Source: Oerskovia enterophila
GTDB taxonomy: Bacteria; Actinomycetota; Actinomycetes; Actinomycetales; Cellulomonadaceae
NCBI RefSeq assembly: GCF_001692445.1
Contig: NZ_MAQA01000047.1
Coordinates: 1 to 37,105 of the forward strand
DNA: 37,105 nt
Direction of reading: 5' to 3'
Shown here: positions 19,379 through 36,306 of the stretch, piece after piece
How positions within the stretch are numbered: position 1 is the stretch's first letter
Layout of the letters: each line of letters starts with the position of its first letter
Translations under genes and position numbers: made by a program
The notes under the pieces: generated by a model
What the model was told of the DNA's origin: nothing
The model's database searches: none
Seen by the model: the letters and a program-made list of their open reading frames with translations, nothing else

Positions 19379-19452
19379 GGGCCTGTAGCTCAGTTGGTTA
19401 GAGCGCCACGCTTACACCGTGGATGTCGGGGGTTCGAGTCCCTCCGGGCCCA
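19379..19452 (+). tRNA. tRNA-Val(UAC)
   Basis: A complete cloverleaf of 74 bases: acceptor GGGCCTG/CGGGCCC (one G-T pair), D arm with AGCTCAGTTGGTTAGAGC, anticodon stem CCACG/CGTGG with loop CTTACAC (anticodon TAC at 19413-19415), T arm with TTCGAGT and discriminator A. CCA is not encoded (CCC follows). The minus-strand recombinase remnant reads into its 3' end, marking it as an insertion target. Confidence 0.97.
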
Positions 19453-20077: not shown

Positions 20078-20406
20078 GCAGCAGTTGACCGTGCTCGGAG
20101 CCTCACCGGCGCTGAGCGACGGCCACAGGAGTCCACGGGTCGAACAAGACCAGGGCGGGCGGGCCTTGCGCTGTAGCCCTCGCCAGCAGGTCGAGCTGTG
20201 CCGCTCCTAGTCTCAAACCTGCGTCGGGTATCATGAGAGTGGGCAGTCTGGACTGCCTGTCTCCGAGTTTGAGTCCCCACGCGACGAAGACGCCGAGGAC
20301 AACCGCCGATGCGGGATCCAGAGAAGCAGCACCTGTTGGTTCGAGATCTCTCTCATGTCACAGGGCTGGTAGGCGTGGGGTGCACAGCCCGGAACAAGAG
20401 ATTGAG
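20078..20406. other. 329-base gap with a possible minus-strand ORF fragment
   Basis: A minus-strand frame (ATG 20234, stop 20103, 43 residues including QGPPALVLFDPWTPVAVAQ) stays open further upstream to about 20355 and has protein-like composition, but I recognise no family; it may be a broken gene of the island. A palindrome, GGCAGTC-TG-GACTGCC (20242-20257), lies in the same stretch. The plus-strand gene starts at 20407 with GAG GAG-poor upstream sequence, so its initiation site is not certain. Confidence 0.25.
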
Positions 20407-21555
20407 ATGACTCCCAGCGATAGCACTCCGACTCGCGCGCTCCAGCAGGATGCGCGGGCCTGGTCCACCTTCACCGGCACGAAGTACACCGCCGCGCTGC
20501 GGCAGATGAGTGCCCCGCTGGCCCAAGGGCTCCTCGGCCCACGGGTCAGCGCACGGCGGCTCATCGCTGCCCTCAGCGATCACGAGCTGGTCGGCTCAGA
20601 TGGCGGCGCTCCCGTCTTGGGCGAGAACGGCGTCCGTTCGGATTCGCCATGGCGCTTCGATGGCAAGACCGACTACATCCAGCTCGCGCTCATCACAGAC
20701 ATGCTCCGGATGTTCACACCCGTCTCGGGCACCTCGACCCCTGAGGTCGGCAGTTACTCCTTGAAGCACACCGCGGAGTGGTTCCTCAGCCCGCACTGCT
20801 CCTATGTGTCCAACGGCCGATTGATCTGGGCAGCAGCAGCCCTTGGGCTCCCGATCACGGACCCGGACGGGTATGGTCCGAACCTCCTGATCGGCGTTTC
20901 CGAGCGTGAGCACGACTACGTGCGCCGCATGGTCGGTACTGGGCAGACCCAACCGCAGGCCGACCATTACCGTCCCGCCGGGTACGAGCACCTCCTGGCC
21001 GCGCTCGCGCAGGCAGCCGCCGGCGAATTCTTCACCGAGAACTGGGTCCGTCCGGAGCCGGTCATCGAGTCTGCTCCGTTCCACGACTGGCTCGTTCAAC
21101 AGGTCGGCCGCAACGACGTCGTGGGCGACCTCGCCGACGACTACTCGGCTGGCGTCCGCGACAGCGACCACCGCGTCGCTCGCACCGCAGGCGAGCTCCT
21201 GGCGATCTTCCACGAGGTCTCTCACTCACCGTCGGCCTACGACGCCGTGGTCACCTCGATCGCCGAGTGGATGCAGGCGAAGCCTTCCCCGGCGCCCATT
21301 CGCACCGAACGGATTAGCGGTGACGCACACGACCACGGCGGTTGGGGCGCTGGTGCCGGGACGGTAGAGCGCTACGAGTTCATCTGCCCCTGTGGGGGCG
21401 GGGCAATCGTCGAAGAGCACGACAGCGTCCCGGGCTTCCGCGAACACGACGTGCGGATCTTGTGTGACAAGTGCCGCGCGGAGTGGCGCTTCGCTGAGGG
21501 CAGGAGCGTACGGGACTGGGCTCTGGTGCCCGTGGCAGCGCGCCTCGCCGCATAG
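20407..21555 (+). CDS. Zinc-ribbon protein of unknown function
   Basis: This 382-residue soluble protein begins with a helical segment typical of an actinobacterial family I have seen without a name (LQQDARAWSTFTGTKYTAAL, about 14-33; GPRVSARRLIAALSDHELVG, about 45-64), followed by EVGSYSLKHTAEWFLSPH and NGRLIWAAAALGLPI. The C terminus is a likely zinc site: CPC (Cys327, Cys329) and CDKC (Cys353, Cys356). I know no function. Its base composition is lower in GC3 than the flanking housekeeping genes, consistent with transfer. It lies in the tRNA-Val island, convergent with the AlbA_2 gene. ATG 20407 is the best start by similarity; an upstream in-frame GTG or ATG would add about 58 residues of poor quality. 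Confidence 0.68.
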   Translation: MTPSDSTPTRALQQDARAWSTFTGTKYTAALRQMSAPLAQGLLGPRVSARRLIAALSDHELVGSDGGAPVLGENGVRSDSPWRFDGKTDYIQLALITDMLRMFTPVSGTSTPEVGSYSLKHTAEWFLSPHCSYVSNGRLIWAAAALGLPITDPDGYGPNLLIGVSEREHDYVRRMVGTGQTQPQADHYRPAGYEHLLAALAQAAAGEFFTENWVRPEPVIESAPFHDWLVQQVGRNDVVGDLADDYSAGVRDSDHRVARTAGELLAIFHEVSHSPSAYDAVVTSIAEWMQAKPSPAPIRTERISGDAHDHGGWGAGAGTVERYEFICPCGGGAIVEEHDSVPGFREHDVRILCDKCRAEWRFAEGRSVRDWALVPVAARLAA

Positions 21556-21573
21556 ACGACAAGAACGAACCGT

Positions 21574-21614
21574 GCGCCGCACCGAGCCGAAGCGAGTCTG
21601 GCTCGGTGCGGCGC
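21574..21614. terminator. Bidirectional terminator between island genes
   Basis: GCGCCGCACCGAGCC (21574-21588) and its exact complement (21600-21614) form a 15-bp stem with an 11-base loop between the convergent zinc-ribbon and AlbA_2 genes. Confidence 0.85.
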
Positions 21615-21630
21615 TTGCGGGGAGCCGCGA

Positions 21631-22884
21631 CTACGCCGACTCGTCTCGGGCAGGCGGCTGAATCATCAGCACGTTCGAGACACCGCCCTGGTTCACGCAG
21701 TCCTGAGCGAGGTCGTGAACGTGCCAGTAGAAGTCCAGGTCGGCCTCCGCCGAGTTCACGGTGGTCTCGACCGGTGTGTAGCGGTGCAGCGGGGTGGAGA
21801 CGCCGCCGTAGGAGTGGCCGAAGTTGTCCACCGTCAAGATGCTCAGAGACTCGGAGCCGACCCACTCAATCCCCACGCGCACGTCGTACTCGTCGTTGCC
21901 CGTCGCCGCGGCGGTCGCGCGGATGAGGGCCATGAGGTCAGCGACGCCACACTCGACCGCTGCCGACTGAATCTGGGAGCCCCCGAAGTATCCGTCGCTA
22001 CTCGAGCGGTGGCCACCGACCGCGGCCGCGAGCGTGACTGATCCGTCGTGATGGAGACTTGCCCACGCTTCCCTCCACAGCGATCGATCGTCTGTCGCGG
22101 TGTTGACGGCAACCCAGCGACGTAGCCCCGGTCGCGGATTGTGCCGGTCAACGTTCTCCAGCGGATGCACGCCGCCACGTCCGGCATAGAACAGGGCCAG
22201 ACCTTCGGCCTTGGTCAGCACATCGCGCGCGCCGTCGCGCGTCAAGCGTTCGTGGAGCCGAGGGACACGGGGGTGGGCGACTGCGACCAGCCAGGCGCGC
22301 TTGTCGGAATCCCTGCCTGCTGCGGCCTCGCCGTACAGGGAATCCAACGCCTCGGTCGCGTGCCGACGCTCGTCGAACCGAGCTCGGTACATCGCCTCGA
22401 TCTGGCGTTCCTTCATCCACACAGTGTCGGAGTCGTTGCGCACCGGAGCGCCGAAGTAGTCGTTGCGGTAGATCAGGTGCGGTCCGTCGACGCTTGCCGG
22501 TACTTCCACGACCACAGCGCGGGTGCCCTCCGTTCCGAGACGATGCACGTTGAGACCGAAGATTGGCGGCGAGATAGCGGTGATCGCGGCGGAGCGCAGG
22601 GATCGTTCATAGGCCTCATCGAACTCTCCGACATCGACCCGATCTGTCGCGGCCTTCTGCGACTCACGTACACCGAACACAATCACGCCGCCGCCACTGT
22701 TCGCCATCGCCGCGACGTCCTTGGGAAAGTCCGTCTGCGGCAAACCCTTCGCCGGCGGCAACTCTGACTTCCAGTCCAAGTCGTTGGTCTCCACGACGCC
22801 GCTGCTCACCGCCGCATCGAGCAGGTCATCCGTCAGCGGTCCAGTAGCGACCCCGAGGGCGCGATGCAGAGCGGTGAAAGTCAT
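21631..22884 (-). CDS. Schlafen/AlbA_2-domain putative nucleic-acid-binding protein
   Basis: This 417-residue protein has an N-terminal AlbA_2 (Schlafen-like) domain: an acidic strand with LDWKSELPP (about 36-44), then DFPKDVAAMANSGGGVIVFGV (core DVAAMANSGGG, about 56-66) and a ligand loop FFGAPVRNDSDTVWM-like segment further on. The C-terminal 250 residues are unassigned. AlbA_2 proteins bind nucleotides or nucleic acids; many act as regulators or in phage and mobile-element conflict, but the role here is unknown. ATG 22884 overlaps the stop of the upstream dprA-like fragment frame (ATGA). Composition and context mark it as island cargo. Confidence 0.8.
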   Translation of the reverse strand: MTFTALHRALGVATGPLTDDLLDAAVSSGVVETNDLDWKSELPPAKGLPQTDFPKDVAAMANSGGGVIVFGVRESQKAATDRVDVGEFDEAYERSLRSAAITAISPPIFGLNVHRLGTEGTRAVVVEVPASVDGPHLIYRNDYFGAPVRNDSDTVWMKERQIEAMYRARFDERRHATEALDSLYGEAAAGRDSDKRAWLVAVAHPRVPRLHERLTRDGARDVLTKAEGLALFYAGRGGVHPLENVDRHNPRPGLRRWVAVNTATDDRSLWREAWASLHHDGSVTLAAAVGGHRSSSDGYFGGSQIQSAAVECGVADLMALIRATAAATGNDEYDVRVGIEWVGSESLSILTVDNFGHSYGGVSTPLHRYTPVETTVNSAEADLDFYWHVHDLAQDCVNQGGVSNVLMIQPPARDESA

Positions 22885-23153
22885 GTTCCCAGAGTAGAGA
22901 TCGCCAACGACAACTGGTGGCGCGGTCGACTGGCGGCTACCCACAGGGCACGCGTCTGCCGGGGCGCGGATCGGGCGATGCCTGACTTACGCTCGAACGT
23001 CCGCTCACCGCCGGTTGCGGGCGGGTCAAGGAGCGCCCTCACGTCGGCCGTATCGGCGACGAGGGAGGCGACGCCTTCGCGCAGGAGCCGATGCGCGCCC
23101 GCGCTGGCCGCGCTGGTCACGGGGCCAGGCACCGCCCCGACCGGACGGCCGAG
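22881..23153 (-). pseudogene. dprA-like C-terminal fragment
   Basis: A minus-strand frame reads LGRPVGAVPGPVTSAASAG and continues HRLLREGVASLVADTADV, then RALLD. This is the end of the Rossmann domain of DprA (Smf), the RecA-loading protein of natural transformation, where VPGPVTSAASAG is a signature. Only about 43 DprA residues remain (23025-23153); upstream there is no similarity in any frame, and downstream the frame runs on for about 48 unrelated residues to a TGA that overlaps the AlbA_2 start. It is a remnant or a chimeric small gene. A possible start is GTG 23132. Confidence 0.6.
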
Positions 23154-23326
23154 CTGCGGGCTCCCACCGGGCTGGACGGCGGACGAGCCGGCTGCCGCGA
23201 CCGTTCTCCACTGACAGCAACGGTGCGTGTCGGTGGCTTCTCCTACTGTGACGTCCGACGCCGCGCCGACGGAGCGCGGCGGCCTCCGGACCCGGTCCGG
23301 CGGCCTGGACGAGACGGCGGGGACAC

Positions 23327-26300
23327 GTGTTCGAGAAGATCAAGGGTTGGCTCCAGGGAGACCACGACGGTGCGGTCGAGGGCGGCGGGACGTCGCTCGG
23401 GGTCGACCGAGCACAAGATGCGCGGCACACGAAGCCTTCCGCTCGGCTGATCGACGGACTGAAGATCCTGGACGCGGACACCCCCGGTCTCGCGGCCCGT
23501 GCCGTCGCCTACGTCCACACGGGCGAGGGACCGGAGCTCGTGACCGAGCTCTCGCAGCGTGGCGACGACTCGACGGACCGTCTGCTCAACCGGCCCGCGA
23601 CGCTGGGCGTGTGGACCTACACGAGCCAGGCCCAGGACAAGGCCATCAAGGAGCACGTGCCCGGCTGGAACGTGGACAAGAGCACGACGGCTCGCGGCAA
23701 CCTCTACACGCTCACCGAACCCGTCGCGATCGACGCGCTCGTCCGGCTCGGACGGCTCCTCGCGGCCGTCTCGCCCGACGTCTCGCGCGCCTCGGACCGG
23801 CTTCCTGCCTGGTTCGCGGCCCTGCTGACCGACGTCGCCAAGACGTGCGGCGACCGTCGCACCCGGGGCAAGGGGGGCAAGCCCGGTATCCGCAGCGCAT
23901 GGACCCCCGAGCTGCTGGTCGCGATCCTGCGCGACGGCGGCGTCGCCGAGGCGAGCATCCCGGCCGCCGTCGTGGCGGCGATCTTCGACCGTCCTGTCAC
24001 GGCCGACTACTACGGCGACCCCCTCGCGGTGTTCGCGGCGCAGCCCGGCGTCGAGGACTACCTGGTCGCCCATCACGCCGAGGTCGTCGCTCTCGCTCCG
24101 CTGCTGCGCGCGACCGGCAAGGTCGAGCTCCTCCAGTTCCTGCGCGCCCAGCCCGCGGCGCGTGACGAGTTCGTCGGGCTCGTCGCCCAGCTCGCGACGG
24201 ACAGCGCGAAGTCGGTGCGCGAGGAGGCCGCAGGCAACCTCGCGGCCCTGCCCGCGGCGCGTCAGGTCGAGCTCCTCGAGCCGCTGCTCACCACGATGCC
24301 CGCGGGCCGCCTCGCGGGCCTCGTGACCCACCTCGTGGGCGTCGAGGGCGGCATCGACGCGCTGCGGCGCGCGCACGCCGCCGACGGCCGCGGGGCACGG
24401 GGGACGCTGCTCTCGAACGCGCTCGAGCGGGCCACGGCCCTCGACGTCGAGACCGTGGCCGCCGACGAGCCCCTCGTCCTCCCTCCCTTCACGCCCCTGC
24501 CCGACGCCGAGCTCGGGGAGCCGTTCGTGCGCTCGGCGCGCGACGCGGTCGACCGTCGCCTCGCCGCGGCCCGCAAGGAGCTCGAGGACCTCGAGGCCCT
24601 GCCCAAGGCGGAGGCCCAGGGCTGGCGCCTCACGCACGCCCGGGGCGCGGTCAAGGACCTGTCGGCCATCACCGACGACCACCTCCGTCAGGTCGCGCAG
24701 TACCTCTCCGGCGCCCTGACCAAGGTGCCCCCGCGCACGGTGCTCGTCGAGCTCCAGGCCCCCGCGATCCGCAACCGCCTCGAGGGCCTGACCATGCTCC
24801 ACGACATCCGCTTCGCACGCTCGCACGGCGGGGGCCGGCAGCGGTACCCCTGGTACCAGCTCAACGCCACGGCCGACCTCGCGATGGACGTGCGGATCCT
24901 GGCCGACGGCGTCGAGCGCGCGGGCGTCCAGGACTCCGAGGTCGCCGTCGCGGAGCTCGTGTTCGACTCCTGGTTCGCCCGGGAGACCTTCGCGCCCGAG
25001 CACCTGTGGCCCTACTACGCCGAGCACCCGGCAGCGCTCGAGACCCACCTCGGCCTGCGTCCCCCGACCAAGGTGGACAGCTACAGCCGCTCCGAGCGGC
25101 TCGAGGTCGCGCTCACGATCCTCGGCGGCTTCCCCACGCTCCCGAACCGCTACCTCCCACGCCTGGCCGAGCTGGCGCTCGGAGACGGCAAGACGCACCG
25201 CGTCGCCGCGCAGAAGGTGCTCGAGTCGCACGCCGGTGCGCGAGACCTCGCCGAGCAGGGGCTGCGTGACGGCAAGACAGAGATCCGAGTCACGGCCGCC
25301 GTCTGGCTCCAGCGCCTGGGCGACCCGGCCGCGATCCCGGCGCTGCGTGCCGCGCTCGCCAAGGAACGCCGCGAGGTGGCCCGAGCGGCGCTCCTCGGTG
25401 CGCTCGAGGCGCTCGGCGACGACATCTCCACGGAGATCGCTCCCGCGACCCTGCTCGCCGAGGCCACCAAGGGGCTCAAGGGCAAGGCTCCTGCGAGCAT
25501 GGCCTGGTTCCCCGTGGACGGGCTGCCGCAGCTGCGGTGGGCCGCGGACGCCCAGCCGGTGCCGGCCGAGGTCGTGCGGTGGTGGGTCGTGCTCGCGGTC
25601 AAGCTCAAGGACCCCAGCGGGCTCGGCCTGATCGCCCGCTACGTCTCGCTGCTCGACGACCAGAGCCGCGCGGCGCTCGGCCGGTTCGTGCTCGACGCGT
25701 GGATCGGTCAGGACACACGGGGCCCCTCCGCGGAGGAGAGCCGCGCCTATGCCGACCGCGAGGCCCAGCAGCGCTACGACCGCTACCAGCACTGGTACAA
25801 GCAGCACCCGCAGTACTACGAGGCCGAGGCGTCCAGGACGGTCGACCAGCATCACCAGGACGCGTTCCGCGAGCACCAGGCCAACTACCTGGGGTCGGCC
25901 ATCAGCGACAAGGGGCTGCTCGCCCTGACCGTCGGCATGCCGGGTACGGACCTGTCCCGTGCCGCCCAGCAGTACCTCAAGGCGCACAACACCCGACGCG
26001 CGCAGATCGAGGTGCTCGTCCGGGCGCTCGCGGCCAACGGCGACCCGGCGGCCATCCAGCTCCTGCTGTCGGTCGCGCGCCGCCACCGGCAGGCCACCGT
26101 GCAGGCGACCGCCCAGGCGCTCGCCCAGGACCTGGCCGAGCGGCGGGGCTGGTCCGCCGAGGAGCTCGCGGACCGCACGGTGCAGACCGCGGGCTTCGAG
26201 GACGACGGGATCCTGCACCTGCACCTCGGGGCACGCGAGTACACGGGACGCATCACGCCCACGTTCACGCTCGAGCTCACCAACGAGGCGGGCAAGGTCG

Positions 26301-27127
26301 TCAAGGCCCTGCCCGCGGCACGGGTGGACGACGACGCCGAGCAGGTCAAGGCCGCCAAGTCGCAGCTCTCCGCGAGCCGCAAGGAGCTCAAGGCCGTCGT
26401 CGCGCTGCAGACCCAGCGGCTGTACGAGGCCATGTGCACCGGACGTGAGTGGCCCGCCGCCGACTGGCAGGAGTTCGTGCTGGGGCACCCGATCATGTCG
26501 CGGCTCGCGGCCGGTCTCGTCTGGCTCGAGAACCCCGGCCCCGACCAGCGGGCGTTCCGCCCGGGCGACGGGGGAGTGCTGATCGACGTCGACGACGAGG
26601 ACGTGACCCTCGCCGACGGCGCGACGGTGTCGGTCGCGCACGGCGTGCTCCTCGGCGAGGACCAGGCCGGTCGCTGGCGCGAGCACCTCGCCGACTACGA
26701 GATCAAGCCGCTGTTCGACCAGCTCGAGGTCGCGGTCCCCGTCACCGACCAGAAGGCAACATCGATCGCGGACCGCAAGGGCTGGCTCACCGACAGCTTC
26801 ACGGTGCGCGGCCGGGCGACCAAGCTCGGGTACTCGCGCAGCCAAGCGGAGGACGGCGGATGGTTCTCGGGCTACGAGAAGGCGTACCCGAGCGTCGGTA
26901 TCACCGCGATCATCGAGTTCACGGGCGCGTTCCTGCCCGAGGAGAACATCCCCGCGGCCCTCACCCAGCTGGTCTTCCGGCGCACGACGCGGGCCTACGG
27001 GCAGAGCGCCGAGGCGCGCCTGGCGGACCTGCCGCCCGTCCTGGTCGCGGAGTCCTACCGCGACTACCTGACCGTCGCTGCCGCCGGCAGCTTCGACGCC
27101 GAGTGGGAGAAGAAGAGCGCATGGTGA
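23327..27127 (+). CDS. DUF4132 protein, first gene of MoxR/VWA operon (YehI-like)
   Basis: This 1266-residue soluble protein has long stretches of HEAT-like helical pairs (for example around 285-310 and 650-705, with IRVTAAVWLQRLGDPAAIPA) and a C-terminal DUF4132 domain (about 970-1070, with VVKALPAARVDDD, VVALQTQRLYEAM and WQEFVLGHPIMSRLAAGLVW). The same domain occurs in E. coli MolR/YehI; I see no WGR domain here. It starts with GTG 23327 after GCGGGGA and its stop overlaps the MoxR gene by 7 bases. Helical-repeat architecture suits a large scaffold or client adaptor for the ATPase, but that is inferred. No function is established for the family. Confidence 0.87.
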   Translation: MFEKIKGWLQGDHDGAVEGGGTSLGVDRAQDARHTKPSARLIDGLKILDADTPGLAARAVAYVHTGEGPELVTELSQRGDDSTDRLLNRPATLGVWTYTSQAQDKAIKEHVPGWNVDKSTTARGNLYTLTEPVAIDALVRLGRLLAAVSPDVSRASDRLPAWFAALLTDVAKTCGDRRTRGKGGKPGIRSAWTPELLVAILRDGGVAEASIPAAVVAAIFDRPVTADYYGDPLAVFAAQPGVEDYLVAHHAEVVALAPLLRATGKVELLQFLRAQPAARDEFVGLVAQLATDSAKSVREEAAGNLAALPAARQVELLEPLLTTMPAGRLAGLVTHLVGVEGGIDALRRAHAADGRGARGTLLSNALERATALDVETVAADEPLVLPPFTPLPDAELGEPFVRSARDAVDRRLAAARKELEDLEALPKAEAQGWRLTHARGAVKDLSAITDDHLRQVAQYLSGALTKVPPRTVLVELQAPAIRNRLEGLTMLHDIRFARSHGGGRQRYPWYQLNATADLAMDVRILADGVERAGVQDSEVAVAELVFDSWFARETFAPEHLWPYYAEHPAALETHLGLRPPTKVDSYSRSERLEVALTILGGFPTLPNRYLPRLAELALGDGKTHRVAAQKVLESHAGARDLAEQGLRDGKTEIRVTAAVWLQRLGDPAAIPALRAALAKERREVARAALLGALEALGDDISTEIAPATLLAEATKGLKGKAPASMAWFPVDGLPQLRWAADAQPVPAEVVRWWVVLAVKLKDPSGLGLIARYVSLLDDQSRAALGRFVLDAWIGQDTRGPSAEESRAYADREAQQRYDRYQHWYKQHPQYYEAEASRTVDQHHQDAFREHQANYLGSAISDKGLLALTVGMPGTDLSRAAQQYLKAHNTRRAQIEVLVRALAANGDPAAIQLLLSVARRHRQATVQATAQALAQDLAERRGWSAEELADRTVQTAGFEDDGILHLHLGAREYTGRITPTFTLELTNEAGKVVKALPAARVDDDAEQVKAAKSQLSASRKELKAVVALQTQRLYEAMCTGREWPAADWQEFVLGHPIMSRLAAGLVWLENPGPDQRAFRPGDGGVLIDVDDEDVTLADGATVSVAHGVLLGEDQAGRWREHLADYEIKPLFDQLEVAVPVTDQKATSIADRKGWLTDSFTVRGRATKLGYSRSQAEDGGWFSGYEKAYPSVGITAIIEFTGAFLPEENIPAALTQLVFRRTTRAYGQSAEARLADLPPVLVAESYRDYLTVAAAGSFDAEWEKKSAW

Positions 27128-28272
27128 CCACACCGACCGCCGCACCGAGCGGCACGCCCCCGGTCCTGGACCGCGAGGCGGCGCAGGAGATCCGCCCGCC
27201 CGCCGAGGTGCGGTTCGCGCACGAGCTCGCGGCCCTCGAAGCGGCCGACCGGGCGCGTGGCGCAGAGCTGCCGCCCGGCTGGCGGCTCAGCCCGCGGGCC
27301 GTGCGCGCCTTCGTCGTGGGCGACGCCGAGCTCGGGGTGCGCCGGAAGTTCTACGGCGACGACCCGCTCGTGGACCGTGCCGTCGTGTCCCTGCTGGGAC
27401 GCCAGGGCCTCATGCTCGTGGGCGAGCCCGGCACCGCGAAGTCGATGCTGTCCGAGCTGCTCGCCGCCGCGGTGAGCGGCACGTCGAACCTCACGGTCCA
27501 GGGCACGGCCGGCACCACGGAGGACCACATCCGGTACTCGTGGAACTACGCGCTGCTCATCGCCGAGGGGCCCAGCGAGCGCTCGCTCGTGCCGTCGGCC
27601 GTCCAGCAGGCCATGAGCGCCGGGAAGATCGTCCGGTTCGAGGAGATCACGCGCTGCGCCCCGGAGATCCAGGACACCCTGGTCTCGATCCTCTCCGAGA
27701 AGCAGCTCATGGTCCCCGAGCTCGGGAGCGAGGCGAGGGTCTCGGCCCGGCCGGGGTTCAACGTGCTCGCGACCGCGAACCTCAAGGACCGGGGCGTCCA
27801 CGAGATGTCGGCCGCGCTCAAGCGACGGTTCAACTTCGAGACCATCAAGCCGCTGACGGACCGCCAGTTCGAGATCGACCTCATCGAGGCGCAGCTGACC
27901 GCCGAGCTCGGTGCGCCCGCCGACCGCCCTCCGCTCTCGCGCGACGTCCTGGACGTGCTGGTCACGGCGTTCCAGGACCTGCGGACCGGCTCCACGAGCA
28001 ACGGAGCACCCGTCAAGCGGCCCGAGACCGTGATGTCGACGGCCGAGGCCGTCAACGTCGCGGTCGCGGCCTCGCTCGAGGCCCGGTACCTCGGCGACGG
28101 CACCGTGACCCCTGCCGAGGTCGCACGCCAGCTCGCGGGCGTGGCCTCGAAGGGCGACGAGGAGGACGCCCGTCGGCTGCGGCACTACGTCGACAACGTC
28201 GTGCGCGAGCGGGCGCGGCGCGACCCGCGCTGGAAGTCGTTCCTCTCGGCGGCGGAGTCCCTGTGGCAGTAG
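27121..28272 (+). CDS. MoxR-family AAA+ ATPase (YehL-like)
   Basis: This 383-residue ATPase has Walker A GEPGTAKS (101-108), Walker B IVRFEEITR (170-178), sensor 1 in LATANLKDRG (about 216-225) and an arginine-finger candidate in LKRRFNFE. MoxR ATPases act as chaperones that remodel protein complexes, usually with a VWA-domain partner encoded nearby; the VWA gene is two genes downstream. The family grouping named after YehL fits the gene set. It overlaps both neighbours (7 and 10 bases), so the five proteins are likely made in coordinated amounts. Catalytic motifs are intact, so ATP hydrolysis is expected; the client is unknown. Confidence 0.93.
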   Translation: MVTTPTAAPSGTPPVLDREAAQEIRPPAEVRFAHELAALEAADRARGAELPPGWRLSPRAVRAFVVGDAELGVRRKFYGDDPLVDRAVVSLLGRQGLMLVGEPGTAKSMLSELLAAAVSGTSNLTVQGTAGTTEDHIRYSWNYALLIAEGPSERSLVPSAVQQAMSAGKIVRFEEITRCAPEIQDTLVSILSEKQLMVPELGSEARVSARPGFNVLATANLKDRGVHEMSAALKRRFNFETIKPLTDRQFEIDLIEAQLTAELGAPADRPPLSRDVLDVLVTAFQDLRTGSTSNGAPVKRPETVMSTAEAVNVAVAASLEARYLGDGTVTPAEVARQLAGVASKGDEEDARRLRHYVDNVVRERARRDPRWKSFLSAAESLWQ

Positions 28273-31022
28273 CACCCGGGCCGGTGCGGGCGGCCTGGGG
28301 GCTCGCACCCGAGCGGATGCAGCGTGCGGTCGCCGGCGTCGAGCAGCTGCGTGCCGAGGGCATCTACCTCGCCCCGGTGCGGCACCACAGCCCGGCCTGC
28401 GCGCTCGCGGTCGAGGCGCTCCTCGACGAGGTCCGCCCCGCCGTCGTGCTCGTCGAAGGGCCCGAGGAGTACGGCCGGCTCCTGCCCGCGCTGCTCGACC
28501 CCCGCACGCGCCCGCCCGTCGCCGTGCTGAGCCTCGGGATCGACGGCAAGGGGGCGGGGTTCTACCCCCTCGCCGAGTTCTCGCCCGAGTGGGTCGCGCT
28601 GCGCACGGCCGACCGGCTGGGAGCCGAGGTCGCGTTCGTCGACCGGTCCTGGGCCGCGCGCGAGGCGGCCGTCGCGTCGGGTGCGTCGGACGCGCCCGAC
28701 GCACCTGACGCACCTGACGCACCAGGCGATGCCGAGGACGACGCGTTCGCCCGGACCCTGCAGTCCGAGCGGAACCTCGCGCACTCGCGGACGGTCGCGG
28801 CCATCGCGGAGCGGCTCGGGTGCCGCGACCACGACGAGGTGTGGGACCACCTGTTCGAGGCGCGCACGCGCGAGCAGCCCACGGACTGGCGCGAGCTCTT
28901 CGACGACGTCTTCGCGTGGGCCGCGCTCGCGCGCCTGGACTACGAGGAGGAGGTGCTCGACGCCGACGGGTCGCTCGCGCGCGAGGCCCTCATGTCCGCC
29001 CGCGTCGCCGAGCACCGGGCGCGGGTCGAGGGGCCCGTGGTCGTCGTGACCGGCGCGTTCCACACGCTCGCGCTCGTCGAGGCCCTCACCGGGGCGCCCG
29101 AGGGCGGGGCGGTCGTGGACCGGCGGCCGGCGGGCGGCTACGGCGACCCGGCTGCGGCCGACGCCTGGCTGATCCGCTACGACCACGAACGGCTCGACGG
29201 CCTGCGAGGGTACGGGGCCGGCATGCCCTCGCCCGGCTACTACGAGCGCCTCTGGGCCGCCCATCGCGACCCCACCGGGCCCGCGGCGCTCAGCACCGCG
29301 CTGCTCGTCGACGTCGCGGCCGCCGCCACGACCCGTGGCGCGCAGGTGAGCTTCGCCGAGGTCGCGTCGGCGGCCGAGCAGGCGCGTCGTCTCGCGGACC
29401 TGCGCGAGCGACCGTGGCCCGGGCGCACCGACCTGCTCGACGCCCTCACCTCGTGCTTCGTCAAGGACGACGGCGGGCTCGACCTGGGCCTCGGGCGTCC
29501 CCTGGGGCAGGCGGTCGCCGAGGTGTTCGGAGGCCGGGCACTGGGTGAGGTCCCGCCGGGTCTCGCGTCGCCCCCGCTCGTCCAGCGCGCCCGGGAACGG
29601 GCCGAGGCGCTGCGGCTCGTCGTGACCGACTCGACGCCGCGCCGCACGAGGCTCGACGCGCGGCGCACGCCCCGGCACCGCGAACGCCGGGCGTTCCTGG
29701 CCCTCACGGACTTCGTGGGGAGCGGTTTCGCGCACCGGGTCTCGGGTCCCGACCACGTCTCGGGTCGCGGCCTCGGCCTGCTGGTCGAGGAGTGGGAGTA
29801 CGCCTGGACGCCGCTCGTCGAGGCCTCCCTGGTCGAGCTCTCGCACCACGGCGCGACGCTCGAGGCCGTCGCGGTGCACCGCCTGCACCGGCTCGAGCAC
29901 GAGCTCGCGACGACCGGCCGCTCGGCCCTCGGGGTCGCGCGACTCGTGGCGCAGGCCGTCGTCCTGGGCCTCACCGACCATCTCGACCGGCTCGTCGCGC
30001 TGCTGCGGTCGACGCTCGACGTCGACCCGTCGCTCGAGTCGGTCGTGGGCGGGCTGCACCGCCTCGTCGACCTGTGGGACGCGCGCGTCGAGCTCGGCCT
30101 GGACGGGCACGCGCCCGAGCTGCTCGACCTGGTGGACCACGGTCTGGCGACGGCCGCCTACCTGGTCCCCGGCCTCGGGAAGGTCGACGCGGACGCGGAG
30201 CCTGCGGCCGTCGGGACGCTCGTCTCGCTGCGCGACCTCCTGCGCGAGGTGCACCGTGCGGGTGCGCTCAGCACCGTGCCCGACGGCGTCGCGCGGCCTC
30301 TCGCGGACGCGCCCGAGGCGGGCGGCGCACCGGCCTCGTCCGCGGCAGGCGGTGCGCCGACCCGTCCCGGGGCAGGCGGCCCCGTGCCCGTGCGCCGCGA
30401 GCTGACCCGCCTGCGCGAGGATCGCGCGACGGCGCCCGGGGTGCGGGGAGCGCTCGTCGCGCTCGCGTCGGTCGACGACTCGCTCGGCGACGACGTCCTG
30501 GTCGCCGAGGTGCGCGCCCAGCTCAGTCCCGGCGCGGACCCGGTCGCCGCGGTCCGCTTCCTCGGCGGGCTGCTGCGCGCGGCCCCCGACCTCCTGCTGC
30601 ACACCCCCGAGCTGTTCGACGCGGTCCACGCCGGGCTGCGCGACCTCGACGAGCCGGCGTTCCTGGCCGTCCTGCCGGACCTGCGCCGCGCCTTCACCTG
30701 GCTCAAGCCCGCCGAGACGCACCACCTCGCCCAGCAGGTGGCCGATCGCACCGGTACGCGCGCCGAGCGGATCGACGTGCACCTGACGGCGACCGAGCGG
30801 GACCTCGAGGTGGGCCTCGCGCTCGAGCGCGAGCTCACCGCGATGCTCGACCGCGACGGCCTCGGTGCCTGGGGCGGCGGGACGCGCCGCGAGCCCGTCG
30901 GAGCACCGGCCGCGGCCGGTGCAGCAGGCCTCGACGGCCCTGTCGGCCCCACCGGCTCGCCCGCCGACCAGGTGCTCGACGACCAGGGCGACCACCACGA
31001 CCTCCAGGAGAACCACCCGTGA
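28263..31022 (+). CDS. DUF5682 protein (YehM-like)
   Basis: This 919-residue protein matches DUF5682: N-terminal PVRHHSPACALAVEALLDE (about 38-56), VVLVEGPEEYGRLLP, VLSLGIDGKGAGFYPLAEFSPEW and, further on, VVVTGAFHTLALVEAL. The N-terminal third has the look of a TraB/EreA-type alpha/beta domain with conserved HH, EGPE and GAFH motifs that could be catalytic; the remainder is helical. An Asp-Ala-Pro tandem tract lies near residue 143. GTG 28263 is chosen for its GGAG site 5 bases upstream; GTG 28284 is an alternative. It overlaps the ATPase gene by 10 bases and the VWA gene by 4. Function is unknown. Confidence 0.86.
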   Translation: MAVAPGPVRAAWGLAPERMQRAVAGVEQLRAEGIYLAPVRHHSPACALAVEALLDEVRPAVVLVEGPEEYGRLLPALLDPRTRPPVAVLSLGIDGKGAGFYPLAEFSPEWVALRTADRLGAEVAFVDRSWAAREAAVASGASDAPDAPDAPDAPGDAEDDAFARTLQSERNLAHSRTVAAIAERLGCRDHDEVWDHLFEARTREQPTDWRELFDDVFAWAALARLDYEEEVLDADGSLAREALMSARVAEHRARVEGPVVVVTGAFHTLALVEALTGAPEGGAVVDRRPAGGYGDPAAADAWLIRYDHERLDGLRGYGAGMPSPGYYERLWAAHRDPTGPAALSTALLVDVAAAATTRGAQVSFAEVASAAEQARRLADLRERPWPGRTDLLDALTSCFVKDDGGLDLGLGRPLGQAVAEVFGGRALGEVPPGLASPPLVQRARERAEALRLVVTDSTPRRTRLDARRTPRHRERRAFLALTDFVGSGFAHRVSGPDHVSGRGLGLLVEEWEYAWTPLVEASLVELSHHGATLEAVAVHRLHRLEHELATTGRSALGVARLVAQAVVLGLTDHLDRLVALLRSTLDVDPSLESVVGGLHRLVDLWDARVELGLDGHAPELLDLVDHGLATAAYLVPGLGKVDADAEPAAVGTLVSLRDLLREVHRAGALSTVPDGVARPLADAPEAGGAPASSAAGGAPTRPGAGGPVPVRRELTRLREDRATAPGVRGALVALASVDDSLGDDVLVAEVRAQLSPGADPVAAVRFLGGLLRAAPDLLLHTPELFDAVHAGLRDLDEPAFLAVLPDLRRAFTWLKPAETHHLAQQVADRTGTRAERIDVHLTATERDLEVGLALERELTAMLDRDGLGAWGGGTRREPVGAPAAAGAAGLDGPVGPTGSPADQVLDDQGDHHDLQENHP
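28689..28724 (+). repeat. 9-bp tandem repeat encoding Asp-Ala-Pro
   Basis: Four near-identical copies of GACGCACCT encode (DAP)4 in the DUF5682 gene, a site prone to slippage that would change length in steps of three residues without frameshift. Confidence 0.85.
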
Positions 31023-32248
31023 CCGACCCGCACACCGGGCGTGCCGACCCCCACCTGGGCCGAGGCGCCCTCGCACCCGTGACCGATCGTGCGGGAGGGG
31101 CAGCGACCAGCCAGGTGACCGACCAGGAGGCCGCTCGTCGCTGGCGGCTCGTCCTGGGCCGCTACGCCGCCCAGGAGCTCCAGCAGGGGCCGGGCGACGC
31201 CGGGATCGAGCGCGCACTGCAGTACCTCTACGACCGTGAGTACGTCGAGCGTGGTCACCGTCTGGGCAAGCAGCCGGGCGCTCGCGGCGGCGGAGGGAGC
31301 CTCGACCCCTCGGCGCTCAAGGCGCTCGACTGGCTCGGCCAGGCACGCACGCTCTTCCCGCGCGAGACGTTCGAGCGCATGCAGGTCGACGCGGTGAGCC
31401 GCTACCGGCTCACGGAGCTGCTCGCCGACCCGACCGCCGCCGAGGCCCTCGAGCCCAGCCGTGAGCTCGCGACCGCGCTGCTGCAGGTCCGCGGCCGGCT
31501 CGACGATCGCGCCGCGGCCGGGCTCCGCACCGTGATCGCGCGCGTGGTCGAGGACATCGTGCGACGCCTGCGCCCCCAGTTCGCGACCGCCCTGAGCGGC
31601 CGCAAGGACCGGTCGCGCCGCTCGATGCACAAGGTCAGCCAGAACTTCGACGGCAAGCGCACGCTGCAGGCCAACCTCTCGCGCTACGACCCCGAGTCCG
31701 GCCGGTTGATCGTCCAGGACGTGCGGTTCGTGTCGAGGGCGCGACGGACCCTGACGTGGGAGGTCATGCTGCTCGTCGACCAGTCGGGCTCCATGGCGGC
31801 CTCGCTGCTCTACAGTGCGGTCTGCGCGGGGATCATGTCGGCCCTGCCCGGGATCTCGGTGCGGCTCGCGGTGTTCGACACCAGCGTCGTCGACCTGTCG
31901 CACCTCGCGCACGACCCGGTCGCGGTCCTGCTCACGGCCCAGCTCGGAGGGGGCACCGACATCGCCAAGGCCATGCGCTACGCCGAGCAGCAGGTGACGA
32001 ACCCGAGCCGCACGGTCGTCGTGCTCGTGAGCGACTTCGAGGAGGGCGGGTCGGTGGCTCAGCTCCTCGCGTCGGTCCGGCGGCTCGCGGAGTCGGGCGT
32101 CCGGCTGCTCGGCCTCGCGGCGCTCGACGAGTCCGCCGAGCCGGTCTACGACCAGGGCACGGCCCGTCGTCTGGCCGAGAGCGGCATGCACGTCGCCGCG
32201 CTCACGCCCGAGCGGTTCGCCGAGTGGCTCGGGGAGGTGCTCGTATGA
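31019..32248 (+). CDS. VWA-domain protein (YehP/CoxE-like)
   Basis: This 409-residue protein has a helical N-terminal half (about 35-200) and a C-terminal von Willebrand A domain with a full MIDAS: DQSGSMA (Asp254, Ser256, Ser258), Thr313 in LGGGTDIAKAM and Asp339 in LVSDFEEGG. An intact MIDAS allows metal-dependent binding to an acidic ligand, as in CoxE, BchD and ViaA, the partners of MoxR/RavA-type ATPases. The GTG start overlaps the DUF5682 stop (GTGA); a GTG at 31079 would remove 20 residues. The pairing with the MoxR ATPase is established for these families; the target is unknown. Confidence 0.91.
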   Translation: MTDPHTGRADPHLGRGALAPVTDRAGGAATSQVTDQEAARRWRLVLGRYAAQELQQGPGDAGIERALQYLYDREYVERGHRLGKQPGARGGGGSLDPSALKALDWLGQARTLFPRETFERMQVDAVSRYRLTELLADPTAAEALEPSRELATALLQVRGRLDDRAAAGLRTVIARVVEDIVRRLRPQFATALSGRKDRSRRSMHKVSQNFDGKRTLQANLSRYDPESGRLIVQDVRFVSRARRTLTWEVMLLVDQSGSMAASLLYSAVCAGIMSALPGISVRLAVFDTSVVDLSHLAHDPVAVLLTAQLGGGTDIAKAMRYAEQQVTNPSRTVVVLVSDFEEGGSVAQLLASVRRLAESGVRLLGLAALDESAEPVYDQGTARRLAESGMHVAALTPERFAEWLGEVLV

Positions 32249-34467
32249 CGCCCGCGTGGTTGGCCGTGTTCGCGGGGTACGACGACGCAGCGCTCGTCGC
32301 GCTCGGCAACGCGGGCCTCCTGCGGCGCGCCCGCAAGGACCTCGTCGGGGGCGAGGTGTCGCTCGCGTCCGAGTCCCCGGACGAGGTCGTGGTCGCCTGC
32401 GGGTCCGCGGTGGTCCGGCTCGGGCCGAAGGGTCCGGTCGCGGCGTCGTGCTCGTGCCCGACGGCGGGCGTGTGCCAGCACGTCGTGGCCGCGTGCCTCT
32501 GGGCCCGCGAGCACCCGGCGGGCCCGGCACCCGAACCCGGCGTGGACGACGCCGGTCCTGGGGCTGCGGCGGCGGACCGTGGAACGGACGGCGGCGATGG
32601 CGACCCTGCGGGCCCCGGACCCGGCCACGGCCCCGGCCCCGGACCCGCCAAGACTGACGAGGCTGCCAGCCCTCTGGCTGCTCTCCTCTCCCTGAGCCCG
32701 GCCGAGGTGTGCCGGGCGGCGGGCAAGGTGGCCGTGCGTCGGGTCGTCGAGCGTCTGCCGAGAGTGCTCCTCGCGGGAGTCGCGGCGGAGGGGAACGGCA
32801 TCACCGACGCGTGCGACCTCGTGGTCGACGGCGCACGGCTCACGATCTCGTGGCCGATCGGTGGCCTGGCGCGCCCGGCCACCGGCGGCGCGAGCGACGG
32901 CCGTGCCACGGTACCGGCCGGGCCGTCGAACGTCGTCGTGTTCGTCGCCCCCGCGGGTTACGGCGGAATGGTCGTCGCAGGGAAGTCGACCGCCGCCGAC
33001 CAGGCCGCCGCCCGGCTCGAGGCGGTCGTCCGGGCCTTCGCCCGCGAGGGACGCTCGTGGTCGTGGCCCCACGAGATCGAGGTCGAGCGCTCGGGTGAGC
33101 TGACCACCGCCCAGCGGGCGGGGATCGAGGAGGCGAGCGCCGTCGTCGGGCACGCGGTCGATGCCGGACTGTCCCACCTCGGGGCCGACGCCGCCGACAC
33201 GCTGCGTGGCGCGGCCGGACGTGCCCGGCTCGTGGGCCTGCTCCTCCTCCACCGGCTCCTGCTCGTCGCCGCAGGGCTCGTCGACGGCCTCGCATCGCGC
33301 GACGACGACGTGACCGAGGCCGACGCGCTGGGCGCGCTCGCCGAGGCCTGGGCGCTCGCGGCCGCGCTCCGCGACGCCCCCGCCGGGGCCCTGCCGGACC
33401 TGGTCGGCGCTCCGGCCCGGCGCGCCCGCGGCGCGGCGGACGACGAGGGCGAGGAACGCCCCGGACGCCTCGTGCCGCTCGGGGTGCGGTGGTGGCGGGC
33501 AGCGAGCGGGGCGCGCGGCATGACCCTCACGGCCTGGGACCAGGAGCACGGCGTGGTGCGCACGGCGACGGCCGCACGCCCCTCGGGGGCAGACCCGGCC
33601 TTCCGCCGGGACGTGGAACTGCCGATGCTGTGGGGGTCCTCGGTCGCGAGCGTCTGCGCGGGACCGTTCACGCTCGACGCCCCTGAGACCCGCCCCGACG
33701 GGACCCTCAGCGTCACCTCGCGCACGCGGCGCGTGGGCGACGGGAGGTTCGACGTCGAGGAGCTGCGCACCGTCGCCGACCGGCTCCGGGACTCGGCGAC
33801 GACCGGGACGGTGGGCTTCGGTCGCGCGGCCCGCCGGGTGCGCCTGGTCATGGTGCGCGAGACGGGAGCGATCGGGGTCGAGGAGGTGCGGCGCGAGGTC
33901 ACCTGGCCCGTCACGGCGGCCGACGGCGGCACGCAGGTCCTGCGCGTCGCGGTCGACCAGGAACGGAGCGTCGAGGCGCTGCTGTCGGTCGTGGCGTCGC
34001 GCCGACCGGTGGTCGCGGTCCTCGTCGAGCGCGAGCCGGGCGGGGGAGCGGACGAGCCGGTAGGCATCTTCCTGCGCGACGGCACCGGGGGGATCGAGCT
34101 CTTCTCCCCCTCGATGTCGCCCGTGTACCGCACCGCGCCGGGCTGGACCGCAATGCGTCGCCTCACGGCGCGGATCGCCGCGCTGCGCAAGGGGTCGACC
34201 ACGCACGTCGCGGAGCCGGTCGACCGGGGGCCCGTGGTGCGCGTCTGCCAACCCGCGCTCGAGGTCGTCGACTCGCTCGGGGCGACGGGCCGTCGCCGCC
34301 TCACGGGATGGCAGCACGAGGCCCTCACCGCCCGTCAGCGCCTCGCGGGGGACCTCGGGATGGCGACCGTCGGACGGTCCCTCGCGGACCTGCTCGCCGA
34401 CCCCACGACGGAGAACGTGCTGCGGGCGCGGTTCGTGCTCGGGCGGGCGCTCGCGCTCACGGGATGA
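32245..34467 (+). CDS. SWIM zinc-finger protein (YehQ-like)
   Basis: This 740-residue protein has a SWIM motif near its N terminus, SCSCPTAGVCQHV: Cys69, Cys71, Cys77 and His79 (C-x-C-x5-C-x-H), which binds zinc and is used for protein or nucleic-acid contacts. A Gly/Pro/Asp-rich linker (about 92-136) separates it from a long, mostly helical and beta C-terminal region without a recognised domain. The ATG overlaps the VWA stop (ATGA). It is the last gene of the five-gene operon, whose families match E. coli yehI, yehL, yehM, yehP and yehQ. SWIM could recruit the complex to a nucleic acid or partner; that is inferred. Confidence 0.88.
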   Translation: MTPAWLAVFAGYDDAALVALGNAGLLRRARKDLVGGEVSLASESPDEVVVACGSAVVRLGPKGPVAASCSCPTAGVCQHVVAACLWAREHPAGPAPEPGVDDAGPGAAAADRGTDGGDGDPAGPGPGHGPGPGPAKTDEAASPLAALLSLSPAEVCRAAGKVAVRRVVERLPRVLLAGVAAEGNGITDACDLVVDGARLTISWPIGGLARPATGGASDGRATVPAGPSNVVVFVAPAGYGGMVVAGKSTAADQAAARLEAVVRAFAREGRSWSWPHEIEVERSGELTTAQRAGIEEASAVVGHAVDAGLSHLGADAADTLRGAAGRARLVGLLLLHRLLLVAAGLVDGLASRDDDVTEADALGALAEAWALAAALRDAPAGALPDLVGAPARRARGAADDEGEERPGRLVPLGVRWWRAASGARGMTLTAWDQEHGVVRTATAARPSGADPAFRRDVELPMLWGSSVASVCAGPFTLDAPETRPDGTLSVTSRTRRVGDGRFDVEELRTVADRLRDSATTGTVGFGRAARRVRLVMVRETGAIGVEEVRREVTWPVTAADGGTQVLRVAVDQERSVEALLSVVASRRPVVAVLVEREPGGGADEPVGIFLRDGTGGIELFSPSMSPVYRTAPGWTAMRRLTARIAALRKGSTTHVAEPVDRGPVVRVCQPALEVVDSLGATGRRRLTGWQHEALTARQRLAGDLGMATVGRSLADLLADPTTENVLRARFVLGRALALTG

Positions 34468-34471
34468 CGGA

Positions 34472-34502
34472 CCCGGGCCAGGGGTGCGCTCGTCGGCCCG
34501 GG
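34472..34502 (+). terminator. Weak hairpin after the MoxR/VWA operon
   Basis: CCCGGGCC (34472-34479) and GGCCCGGG (34495-34502) can pair across a 15-base loop, just after the SWIM stop codon and before the polymerase gene. The stem is short and has no T tract, so read-through into the next gene is possible. Confidence 0.35.
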
Positions 34503-34524
34503 AGAGCGACGGGGCCTGCGGACG

Positions 34525-36306
34525 GTGCGACGAGGAGTGTCAGACCCGCACGGCAGACTCTGCGTCGTGTACTCGGTCCCGCTCCGCACGTCGCCCGCCG
34601 ACCCGGGCCTCGTCGACGTCCAGGACCTCGACGCCCGCGGCGAGCCTCTCGCCCCGCCGCGCACCCACGCGCCCTGGCCGGGGCTGCTCGCGCGCGAGCC
34701 GGACGGTCGGAGCGGCGAGCCTTCCCCGGCCCCGGTGACCCGCTGGGTCTGGGACGACACCAACCTCTGGTACCCGGCAGCCCTCGCAGCGGGCCGACGG
34801 GTAGAGCGCGCGCACGACCTGCGGCTGTCCCGCGCGATCCTGCGCCGCTCGACGCTCACGGTCGGCACGCCGCTCGCACGCGCGCCGCGCGACGCGTGGG
34901 ACCAGATGCACCCCGTGCCCACCGCCCCCGTCCCGGGGCTCGACCGTCCCGACGCGCTCTTCGACCTCGGCGACCGGCGCGCCGTCTCCCCACCCGACCC
35001 GGTCGGGGAGCTGCACAGGCAGCTCGAGGCCGTCGCGACGTCGTCGGGCGCGGGGCGGCTGCGGCTGCTGCTCGCCGCGGAGTCCGCGGGCGCCCTGGTC
35101 GCCGCCGAGATGAGCCATGCCGGGCTGCCGTGGCGTGAGGACCTCCACGACGCGATGCTCACGGGAGTCCTGGGGACACGTCCGCCGCTGGGCCTGCGCC
35201 CGGCCCGCCTCGAGGCGCTGGCCGAGCAGGTCCGGACCGCGCTCGACGCGCCGGCCCTCAACCCCGACTCGGGACCCGAGCTCCTCAAGGCCCTCGAGTA
35301 CGCCGGGGTGGGCGTGAAGTCGACCCGCAAGTGGGACCTCGAACGGGTGGACCACCCGGTCGTGGCCCCGTTGCTCGAGTACAAGAAGCTCAGCCGCCTG
35401 CTCACGGCCAACGGCTGGAACTGGCTCGACACCTGGGTGCGCGGCGGGAGGTTCCGGCCCGAGTACGTCGTCGGGGGAGTCGTCACGGGGCGCTGGGCCG
35501 CGAACGGCGGGGGAGCGCTCCAGCTCCCGCACCAGGTCAGGTCGGCCGTGGTCGCGGACCCGGGCTGGAAGCTCGTCGTGGCCGACGCGGCTCAGCTCGA
35601 GCCCCGCGTCCTCGCGGGGCTCTCGGGAGACCTCGTCATGGCAGAGGCCGGGCGCGGCGGCGACATGTACCAGGGCATCGTCGACGCGGGCGCGGTCGAG
35701 ACGCGCGCGCAGGCCAAGATCGGGATGCTCGGCGCCATGTACGGAGGCACCACGGGGGAGAGCGGACTCATGCTGCCGCGCCTGGCCAAGGCGTTCCCCC
35801 GGGCCCTGGAGCTCGTCGAGCAGGCCGCGCGCGCGGGCGAGCGCGGCGAGATCGTGACCACGCGCCTGGGGCGGAGCTCGCCCCCGCCGGGGTCGGGCTG
35901 GGAGGAGACGCAGGGCGGCGCGTACGACGAGTCCGCGTCGAGCGACGCCCAGTCCCGCGCCCGCAGCCAGACCCGCGCCTGGGGCCGCTTCACCCGGAAC
36001 TTCGTCGTGCAGGGAACCGCCGCGGAGTGGGCGCTGTGCTGGATGGCCTCGCTGCGCGGGCGGCTCGCCGCGATGCCGCAGGCCCGGACCCCGGGCCGGG
36101 CTCCCGCCCCCTTCACCGAGCAGCCGCACATGGTCTTCTTCCTGCACGACGAGATCATCGTGCACGCCCCTGCCGAGCTCGCCGAGCAGGTCGCGGACGA
36201 GATCCGGGCCGCGGGCACCGAGGCCGGGAAGCTGCTCTTCGGCGACTTCCCGGTCGACTTCCCGCTGACGGTCGCGATCGTCGACGACTACTCGCAGGCC
36301 AAGTAG
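34525..36306 (+). CDS. Bifunctional 3'-5' exonuclease/DNA polymerase (PolA-like)
   Basis: This 593-residue actinobacterial family A-type polymerase keeps motif A as VADAAQLEPRVLAGLSGD (Asp354, Glu359), motif B as RAQAKIGMLGAMYGG (Arg394, Lys398, Tyr406) and motif C as HDE (541-543), so polymerase chemistry looks possible. The first 200 residues correspond to the exonuclease-like region, but the DEDD acidic motifs are not evident and the domain may be inactive. It lies 57 bases after the SWIM gene on the same strand. The start is uncertain: GTG 34525 is used; GTG 34537 has a GAGGAG almost touching it, and GTG 34567 is also possible. Role in repair is inferred from the family. Confidence 0.87.
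   Translation: MRRGVSDPHGRLCVVYSVPLRTSPADPGLVDVQDLDARGEPLAPPRTHAPWPGLLAREPDGRSGEPSPAPVTRWVWDDTNLWYPAALAAGRRVERAHDLRLSRAILRRSTLTVGTPLARAPRDAWDQMHPVPTAPVPGLDRPDALFDLGDRRAVSPPDPVGELHRQLEAVATSSGAGRLRLLLAAESAGALVAAEMSHAGLPWREDLHDAMLTGVLGTRPPLGLRPARLEALAEQVRTALDAPALNPDSGPELLKALEYAGVGVKSTRKWDLERVDHPVVAPLLEYKKLSRLLTANGWNWLDTWVRGGRFRPEYVVGGVVTGRWAANGGGALQLPHQVRSAVVADPGWKLVVADAAQLEPRVLAGLSGDLVMAEAGRGGDMYQGIVDAGAVETRAQAKIGMLGAMYGGTTGESGLMLPRLAKAFPRALELVEQAARAGERGEIVTTRLGRSSPPPGSGWEETQGGAYDESASSDAQSRARSQTRAWGRFTRNFVVQGTAAEWALCWMASLRGRLAAMPQARTPGRAPAPFTEQPHMVFFLHDEIIVHAPAELAEQVADEIRAAGTEAGKLLFGDFPVDFPLTVAIVDDYSQAK

Follow-up and report, generated by a model that had tools for sequence, protein, structure and literature searches.

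A conserved five-gene operon linking a MoxR-type ATPase and a VWA protein to DUF5682, a protein with a probable TIKI-like domain

Layout and surroundings of the operon

The window analysed here is the whole of positions 1-37,105 of NZ_MAQA01000047.1 (GCF_001692445.1) from Oerskovia enterophila, a stretch of 37,105 bases with 72% GC. Five plus-strand open reading frames occupy positions 23327-34467 (Table 1). Their coordinates confirm the successive overlaps of 7, 10, 4 and 4 bases, at the chosen starts, that an earlier note on this DNA had described, and Pfam bears out the families it had named, with SWIM just below cut-off (18.7 bits vs 19.6). The start taken for the DUF5682 gene, the GTG at 28263, is one among several possible starts. 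The MoxR, DUF5682, VWA, SWIM and DUF4132 genes of a YehL-type operon are all present together. A scan of 22900-34700 found no terminator-like site on the plus strand and one on the minus strand (0.9 expected overall). It also found no sigma-70-like promoter, of which 0.0 would be expected at so high a GC content. We infer from the sequence that the five genes are probably read as one transcript.

Table 1. Features of the operon and its flanks in the window
Feature	Position	Strand	Evidence or remark
tRNA-Val	19379-19454		Upstream of operon
Stretch beside tRNA-Val: SLFN/AlbA_2 gene (21631-22944, -) and 440-aa ORF without Pfam match	19460-23226		
DUF4132 protein, 1266 aa: HEAT-like repeats and C-terminal DUF4132 domain	23327-27127	+	Pfam DUF4132 6.2e-37, HEAT_2 1.5e-7
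MoxR-type AAA+ ATPase of the YehL kind, 383 aa; Walker A GEPGTAKS, Walker B RFEE	27121-28272	+	Pfam AAA_5 3.3e-36
DUF5682 protein, 919 aa: N-terminal alpha/beta domain, then helical region	28263-31022	+	Pfam 9.4e-106
Probable TIKI/TraB/ChaN-like domain of DUF5682, residues 17-318	28311-29216	+	hhalign to ChaN and TraB; residue conservation; fragment model
VWA protein, CoxE type, 409 aa, MIDAS intact	31019-32248	+	Pfam VWA_CoxE 5e-50
SWIM zinc-finger protein, 740 aa; ligands C69, C71, C77, H79	32245-34467	+	Pfam SWIM 0.0013, below cut-off
PRK14975-type bifunctional exonuclease/DNA polymerase (DNA polymerase A)	34525-36306		Downstream of operon; weak PADLOC RTasPolA match

The ATPase has an AAA_5 domain, a Walker A motif and the catalytic Glu of Walker B, but it lacks the usual Walker B Asp. 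Walker B normally reads hhhhDE, with Asp at the position where these ATPases carry Glu. Among the 103 MoxR rows above set score and length limits, the Walker A Lys is present in every one and Walker B reads R-h-E-E in every one (R-F-E-E in the window). The description of intact Walker motifs therefore holds for Walker A and fails for Walker B, and the RhEE form, which is new here, appears to be a trait of this ATPase subfamily. The MIDAS of the window VWA protein is complete (DxSxS, T and D), as had been claimed, and its residues are kept in 106-107 of the 107 VWA rows above the corresponding limits. Each of the four SWIM zinc ligands (CxC..CxH) is present in 49 of 51 aligned rows, 31 of which match Pfam SWIM at E≤0.01. 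The middle part of the DUF4132 family profile matches artificial HEAT-repeat structures, and the protein is likely a scaffold or adaptor. Searches of PDB sequences with DUF5682, SWIM and VWA gave no useful match.

The operon and the same downstream polymerase-like gene are kept in all six genus relatives (6/6), and DNA of that polymerase was also matched beside the operon in three of eight other genomes. The flank up to tRNA-Val is common to four of the six relatives. The stretch at about 19.46-23.2 kb found no match in 20-kb pieces from the six (1-kb steps), no convincing direct repeats bound it, and it looks like a separate insertion at tRNA-Val. The earlier note had argued from a bordering mobile island; that argument is not supported, because the island has no match in the pieces from six relatives that all keep the operon, and a defence role by way of the island was rejected on the same ground. 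In a flank scan of 202 of 340 ORFs within 5 kb (nine short or near-duplicate loci left aside, and one very long upstream ORF of 101 chosen left out), no Pfam family exceeded 4 of 100 upstream or 3 of 102 downstream ORFs; these raw counts, taken without a background set, were mainly of transporters and regulators.

One conserved system and its relatives

In a sample of 296 genomes from the phylum, 21 carry DUF5682, and a window-type VWA at E≤1e-30 is found in the same 21. DUF5691 lies above cut-off in 17 of the 296, every one inside this set, and DUF4132 in 14, of which 12 are inside and 2 outside; none of the 21 lacks both. The co-occurrences are not independent events, since the 21 genomes come from 12 of 199 genera and are related to one another. 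DUF5682 is absent from 275 of the 296, which means that the system is not essential in general.

Gene order was compared in the best 80 of 571 loci, from ten phyla as judged by record titles and tree labels, picked by likeness to DUF5682 with the window protein first, a set that leans to the window kind. In the 63 loci with at least 5 kb upstream and at least 4.5 kb downstream of DUF5682, MoxR lies within 4 kb upstream in 60, VWA is directly downstream in 58 and anywhere in 60, a long SWIM protein occurs in 55 and DUF4132 in 53. Five of these loci without a long SWIM protein have a short SWIM and DUF5691 upstream instead. The order of the window, DUF4132-MoxR-DUF5682-VWA-SWIM, is found in 35 of the 80 loci, MoxR-DUF5682-VWA-SWIM-DUF4132 in 16 and VWA-SWIM-DUF4132-MoxR-DUF5682 in 2; the remaining 27 are partial or singular. 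DUF5682 and VWA share one reading frame at six same-class loci (L028, L031-L035), in second copies. On sequence grounds, the five families form one conserved system across phyla. The single system claimed earlier is thus upheld by the shared genomes of DUF5682 and VWA and by the upstream MoxR genes, and the families co-occur in three full-set orders.

DUF5682 stands without the other four families in reach at 3 of the 63 loci (L067, L068, L101), which fits an enzyme able to work on its own. Aldo/keto reductase, cytochrome b and thiolase genes are examples of what adjoins these solitary genes. A different arrangement occurs in Streptomyces atratus (L140:6869-19579), where a 288-aa DUF4132 protein, a 1640-aa 'DNA-binding' protein, an AAA protein, a 1255-aa DUF5682 protein and a SWIM-like protein are encoded consecutively.

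As the earlier note had stated, yehI-L-M-P-Q of E. coli K-12 encode the same families in an order identical to that of the window operon. The E. coli locus differs in having yehK inserted (yehI-yehK-yehL-yehM-yehP-yehQ), an insert that the window lacks, and in carrying the WGR gene yehF and the pseudogene yehH upstream. The yehM gene is near-core, with at least 80% covered in 5,166 of 5,426 E. coli genomes, yet an excerpt of PMC10652928 reports yehI to yehQ as absent from the reduced strain DGF-298; the genes are therefore conserved but dispensable in E. coli. At another locus, L135, the E. coli yeh region lies on a conjugative plasmid, between IS26 copies and adjoining resistance genes.

A sister class, new here, has DUF5691 in place of DUF4132. 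Its SWIM-DUF5691-AAA-DUF5682 arrangement was found on plasmids of Deinococcus, Methylosinus and Rhizobium. The adjoining gene is annotated as VWA in Deinococcus and in Rhizobium, and Methylosinus has a fragmented VWA. DUF5691 of Hymenobacter is joined to a part resembling the short SWIM proteins. In the MoxR tree (98 rows), the DUF5691, DUF4132-last and fused classes each split off at 99-100% support; the program cautions that long-branch attraction is possible between the DUF5691 class and L038/L039. Operons of beta- and gammaproteobacteria (Proteus, Gilliamella, Acinetobacter, Massilia and others) form the sister group to the window clade of Promicromonosporaceae and their relatives (support 99/90), and E. 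coli YehL stands apart from that clade in another lineage with the Lentzea, Actinomadura and Polyangium types. The DUF5682 tree (73 rows, quick method) agrees with this placement of the window clade (support 99). Both genes appear to have crossed phyla, and the inter-phylum transfer that the two trees suggest is also new here; deep branches are unsure because many tree rows differ in letter make-up. L038 and L039 represent a fourth DUF5682-MoxR lineage, a divergent one that lacks the usual RHH motif and has CHH in L039.

Several known systems resemble this one in part. NorQD and CoxDE likewise combine a MoxR ATPase with a CoxE-type VWA, but the present system adds DUF5682, HEAT-like DUF4132 and SWIM proteins and has the RhEE Walker B. 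The vWA-MoxR ternary conflict systems, as excerpted from PMC7159879, also have MoxR, VWA and a large third component, which differs from DUF5682, the third component here; the main text of that paper contains none of the terms 'SWIM', 'WGR', 'Yeh' and 'DUF4132'. An excerpt of PMC3893208 names the YehL subfamily of MoxR ATPases, which comes from the same operon type as the window ATPase, and gives no function for it. The terms 'DUF5682' and 'yehLMPQ', and likewise 'DUF5691', did not occur in the open-licence PMC literature among the matches listed.

The N-terminal domain of DUF5682

The strongest new point of the analysis is a TIKI-like domain in DUF5682. An AlphaFold2 model of the whole protein reached pLDDT 87.5 and pTM 0.83, and residues 17-318 were modelled as an alpha/beta domain with pLDDT 90.4 and pTM 0.90. 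H41 is positioned after the first strand, E65 within the second and H267 after a later strand. The TIKI superfamily, as described in an excerpt of PMC6254334, takes in TraB/PrgY/GumN, ChaN and erythromycin esterase; the 2His/2Glu set is described there too. In hhalign comparisons, DUF5682 scored 39.7 against ChaN (probability 69%) and 36.0 against TraB (42%), both above the yardstick of ChaN against TraB (30.3, 23%). Controls with VWA, MoxR, SWIM and DUF4132 reached at most 16.2 and 59 column shuffles (58 scored) at most 20.5. Of 313 shuffles of 8-column blocks (mean 27.2), two attained the ChaN score and none the TraB score. By subgroup, the window, Firmicutes and Lentzea/Polyangium types score 39-41 against ChaN, and the window type 30.4 against TraB; the DUF5691 class scores 40.3 against TraB but 28.3 against ChaN, the latter close to the highest subgroup control (25.3, SWIM vs that class). 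PF04187 and PF01963 each occur in 0 of 60 genomes of the window's class, so the sequences used as yardstick were taken from 19 genomes located by way of the loci: 18 of 22 TraB and 5 of 6 ChaN loci in the main comparison, and 8 of 22 TraB loci in the count of invariant residues.

The residue pattern agrees with these scores. H41, H42, E65, R240, M244, G264 and H267 are conserved in all rows of the DUF5682 alignment (73/73), which holds 73 of 112 sequences (the window and 111 references; L049 and L089 dropped as broken). Eight TraB rows have invariant G15xxH18, E42, R189 and G214xxH217. DUF5682 and the TIKI superfamily share a GxxH-like motif, a Glu 24 residues on (41 to 65 in DUF5682, 18 to 42 in TraB), an invariant Arg and a GxxH, and the catalytic His, Glu, Arg and GxxH are in register with both ChaN and TraB. 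Conservation of R40, H41 and H42 arises partly by selection because RHH was used in the search and row choice, being one of two search patterns behind L040-L119 and the reason for dropping L038 and L039; E65, R240 and H267 are in no search pattern and free of this selection. DUF5682 differs from TIKI proteins in having P or G three residues before the first His, a long fused helical region and a tie to an ATPase. It also lacks the full 2His/2Glu set, since the first Glu is replaced by V or I at 39, a position where most TraB rows carry GT or GS.

A fold search of the PDB did not confirm the assignment. With the isolated domain, no Foldseek match reached E≤0.001; first in rank was 7w5z_E, a Tetrahymena complex IV chain (E 0.02), and one TIKI relative was recognised among the best 50, 2rad, weakly at rank 15 (E 2.1). 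This entry, target BcR135, is named as an Ere family protein in an excerpt of PMC6254334. The whole model matched mostly helical repeats. Taken together, the profile scores and residue pattern indicate that the N-terminal domain of DUF5682 probably belongs to the TIKI superfamily, as a ChaN/TraB-like member.

A proposed machine and competing explanations

The operon is real, conserved and unexplained, and it probably encodes one multi-protein machine. Its ATPase carries a nucleotide-binding signature and its VWA protein a metal-binding signature. We give an even chance to a remodelling machine controlled by ATP and the MIDAS, with a TIKI-type hydrolase or cofactor-binding subunit. The MoxR ATPase would assemble into a ring, which the VWA protein would link to DUF5682 by means of its MIDAS, in the way that NorD connects NorQ with its client. 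DUF5682 would supply the TIKI/TraB/ChaN-superfamily domain (H41, E65, R240, H267) on a helical scaffold and may be a hydrolase, protease or cofactor-binding subunit, with ATP hydrolysis serving to open or load it. The scaffold or adaptor would be DUF4132, replaced by DUF5691 in the sister class, and the SWIM finger might recognise a nucleic acid or protein target. Only tentatively do we go further and propose an undescribed AAA+ class, in which an RhEE MoxR ring and a MIDAS protein gate a TIKI-superfamily hydrolase, with interchangeable DUF4132/DUF5691 adaptors, SWIM targeting and apparent exchange between phyla. The proposal turns five genes without an established role, which E. coli K-12 has as well, into one testable machine, and the TIKI-like domain makes the orphan family DUF5682 a testable enzyme or cofactor-binding subunit. 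The candidate active site of DUF5682 and the odd Walker B are ready targets for point mutants, and the DUF4132/DUF5691 swap suggests a general design with different targets.

Other readings assign DUF5682 or the whole set a different part. DUF5682 could be a catalytically dead scaffold in which the TIKI-like residues merely keep the fold. The missing first catalytic Glu and the weak fold search would suit this, but E65, R240 and H267, which lie outside row selection, are kept in every row, and we regard a dead scaffold as distinctly unlikely. An unlikely reading, although less so, is that the set inserts metals or cofactors, as CoxDE, NorQD and the Mg/Co chelatases do, and that DUF5682 is its large subunit for binding the cofactor or client. 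ChaN binds haem, the top Pfam family of the VWA protein is CoxE, some DUF4132 or WGR proteins are named 'molybdate metabolism regulator', and work on E. coli molR reportedly connected it with molybdate. Excerpts of the literature state that NorQ and NorD serve FeB insertion (PMC9976466), that MoxR-vWA pairs derive from CoxD-CoxE (PMC7159879) and that yehM was mutated in E. coli lines exposed to copper (PMC12409786). Among the 25 most numerous of 84 and of 123 flanking families, however, no metalloenzyme family goes beyond 2 of the 202 ORFs (Cytochrome_CBB3 has 2), and moeA and moeB were unchanged in cells with raised DRA0166 according to an excerpt of PMC8533742.

The earlier note had also left room for defence, and an anti-phage or conflict system would have a precedent in the MoxR-vWA ternary conflict systems (PMC7159879, in excerpt). 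The ATPase scores 26.0 bits vs a cut-off of 27 for bpMoxR and matches MadB of the MADS defence system at 4.6e-8 (32.6 vs a cut-off of 475 bits), the distribution across 59 relatives is patchy, with 7 of 46 genera positive, restriction-modification genes follow the operon on an Iodobacter plasmid, and some flanking ORFs match PADLOC models, among them mad2, mad3, mad6, GajA, LmuB and AbiLi, each with 1 or 2 members. Set against this, the five operon proteins have no PADLOC match at E≤0.01, yehM is near-core, the operon and its downstream gene persist in all six genus relatives, and DUF5682 was matched in 35 plasmid records (of 72,556) and a single phage record (of 50,697). Nor do defence families recur strongly among the neighbours, each PADLOC family occurring in at most 2 of 202 flanking ORFs (a raw count without a background set). 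A defence role is therefore not favoured and seems improbable to us; a chromosomal maintenance, stress or cofactor role is more likely than phage defence.

We consider a DNA-damage or genome-maintenance machine very improbable. SWIM and WGR domains are thought to contact nucleic acid, and E. coli yehF near the operon carries a Pfam WGR domain. WGR labels outside YehF are unproved because our home-made WGR profile drifted, matching YehI, which lacks Pfam WGR, and it was not relied on. DUF4132 and WGR genes were raised upon DdrO depletion (PMC8533742, in excerpt), but no general SOS box lies upstream in the loci tested, and SOS regulation as a general control was not borne out. The window has no SOS box with fewer than two mismatches; its 44 two-mismatch sites (28.8 expected, 0 of 100 shuffles as high) are scattered and mostly within genes. 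Only four of the loci tested, L045, L056, L057 and L064 (Proteus, Xenorhabdus), share a LexA-like site, CTGTTTAT(C/T)CATACAT, 74-86 bases before the DUF4132 match, a count made without a chance control.
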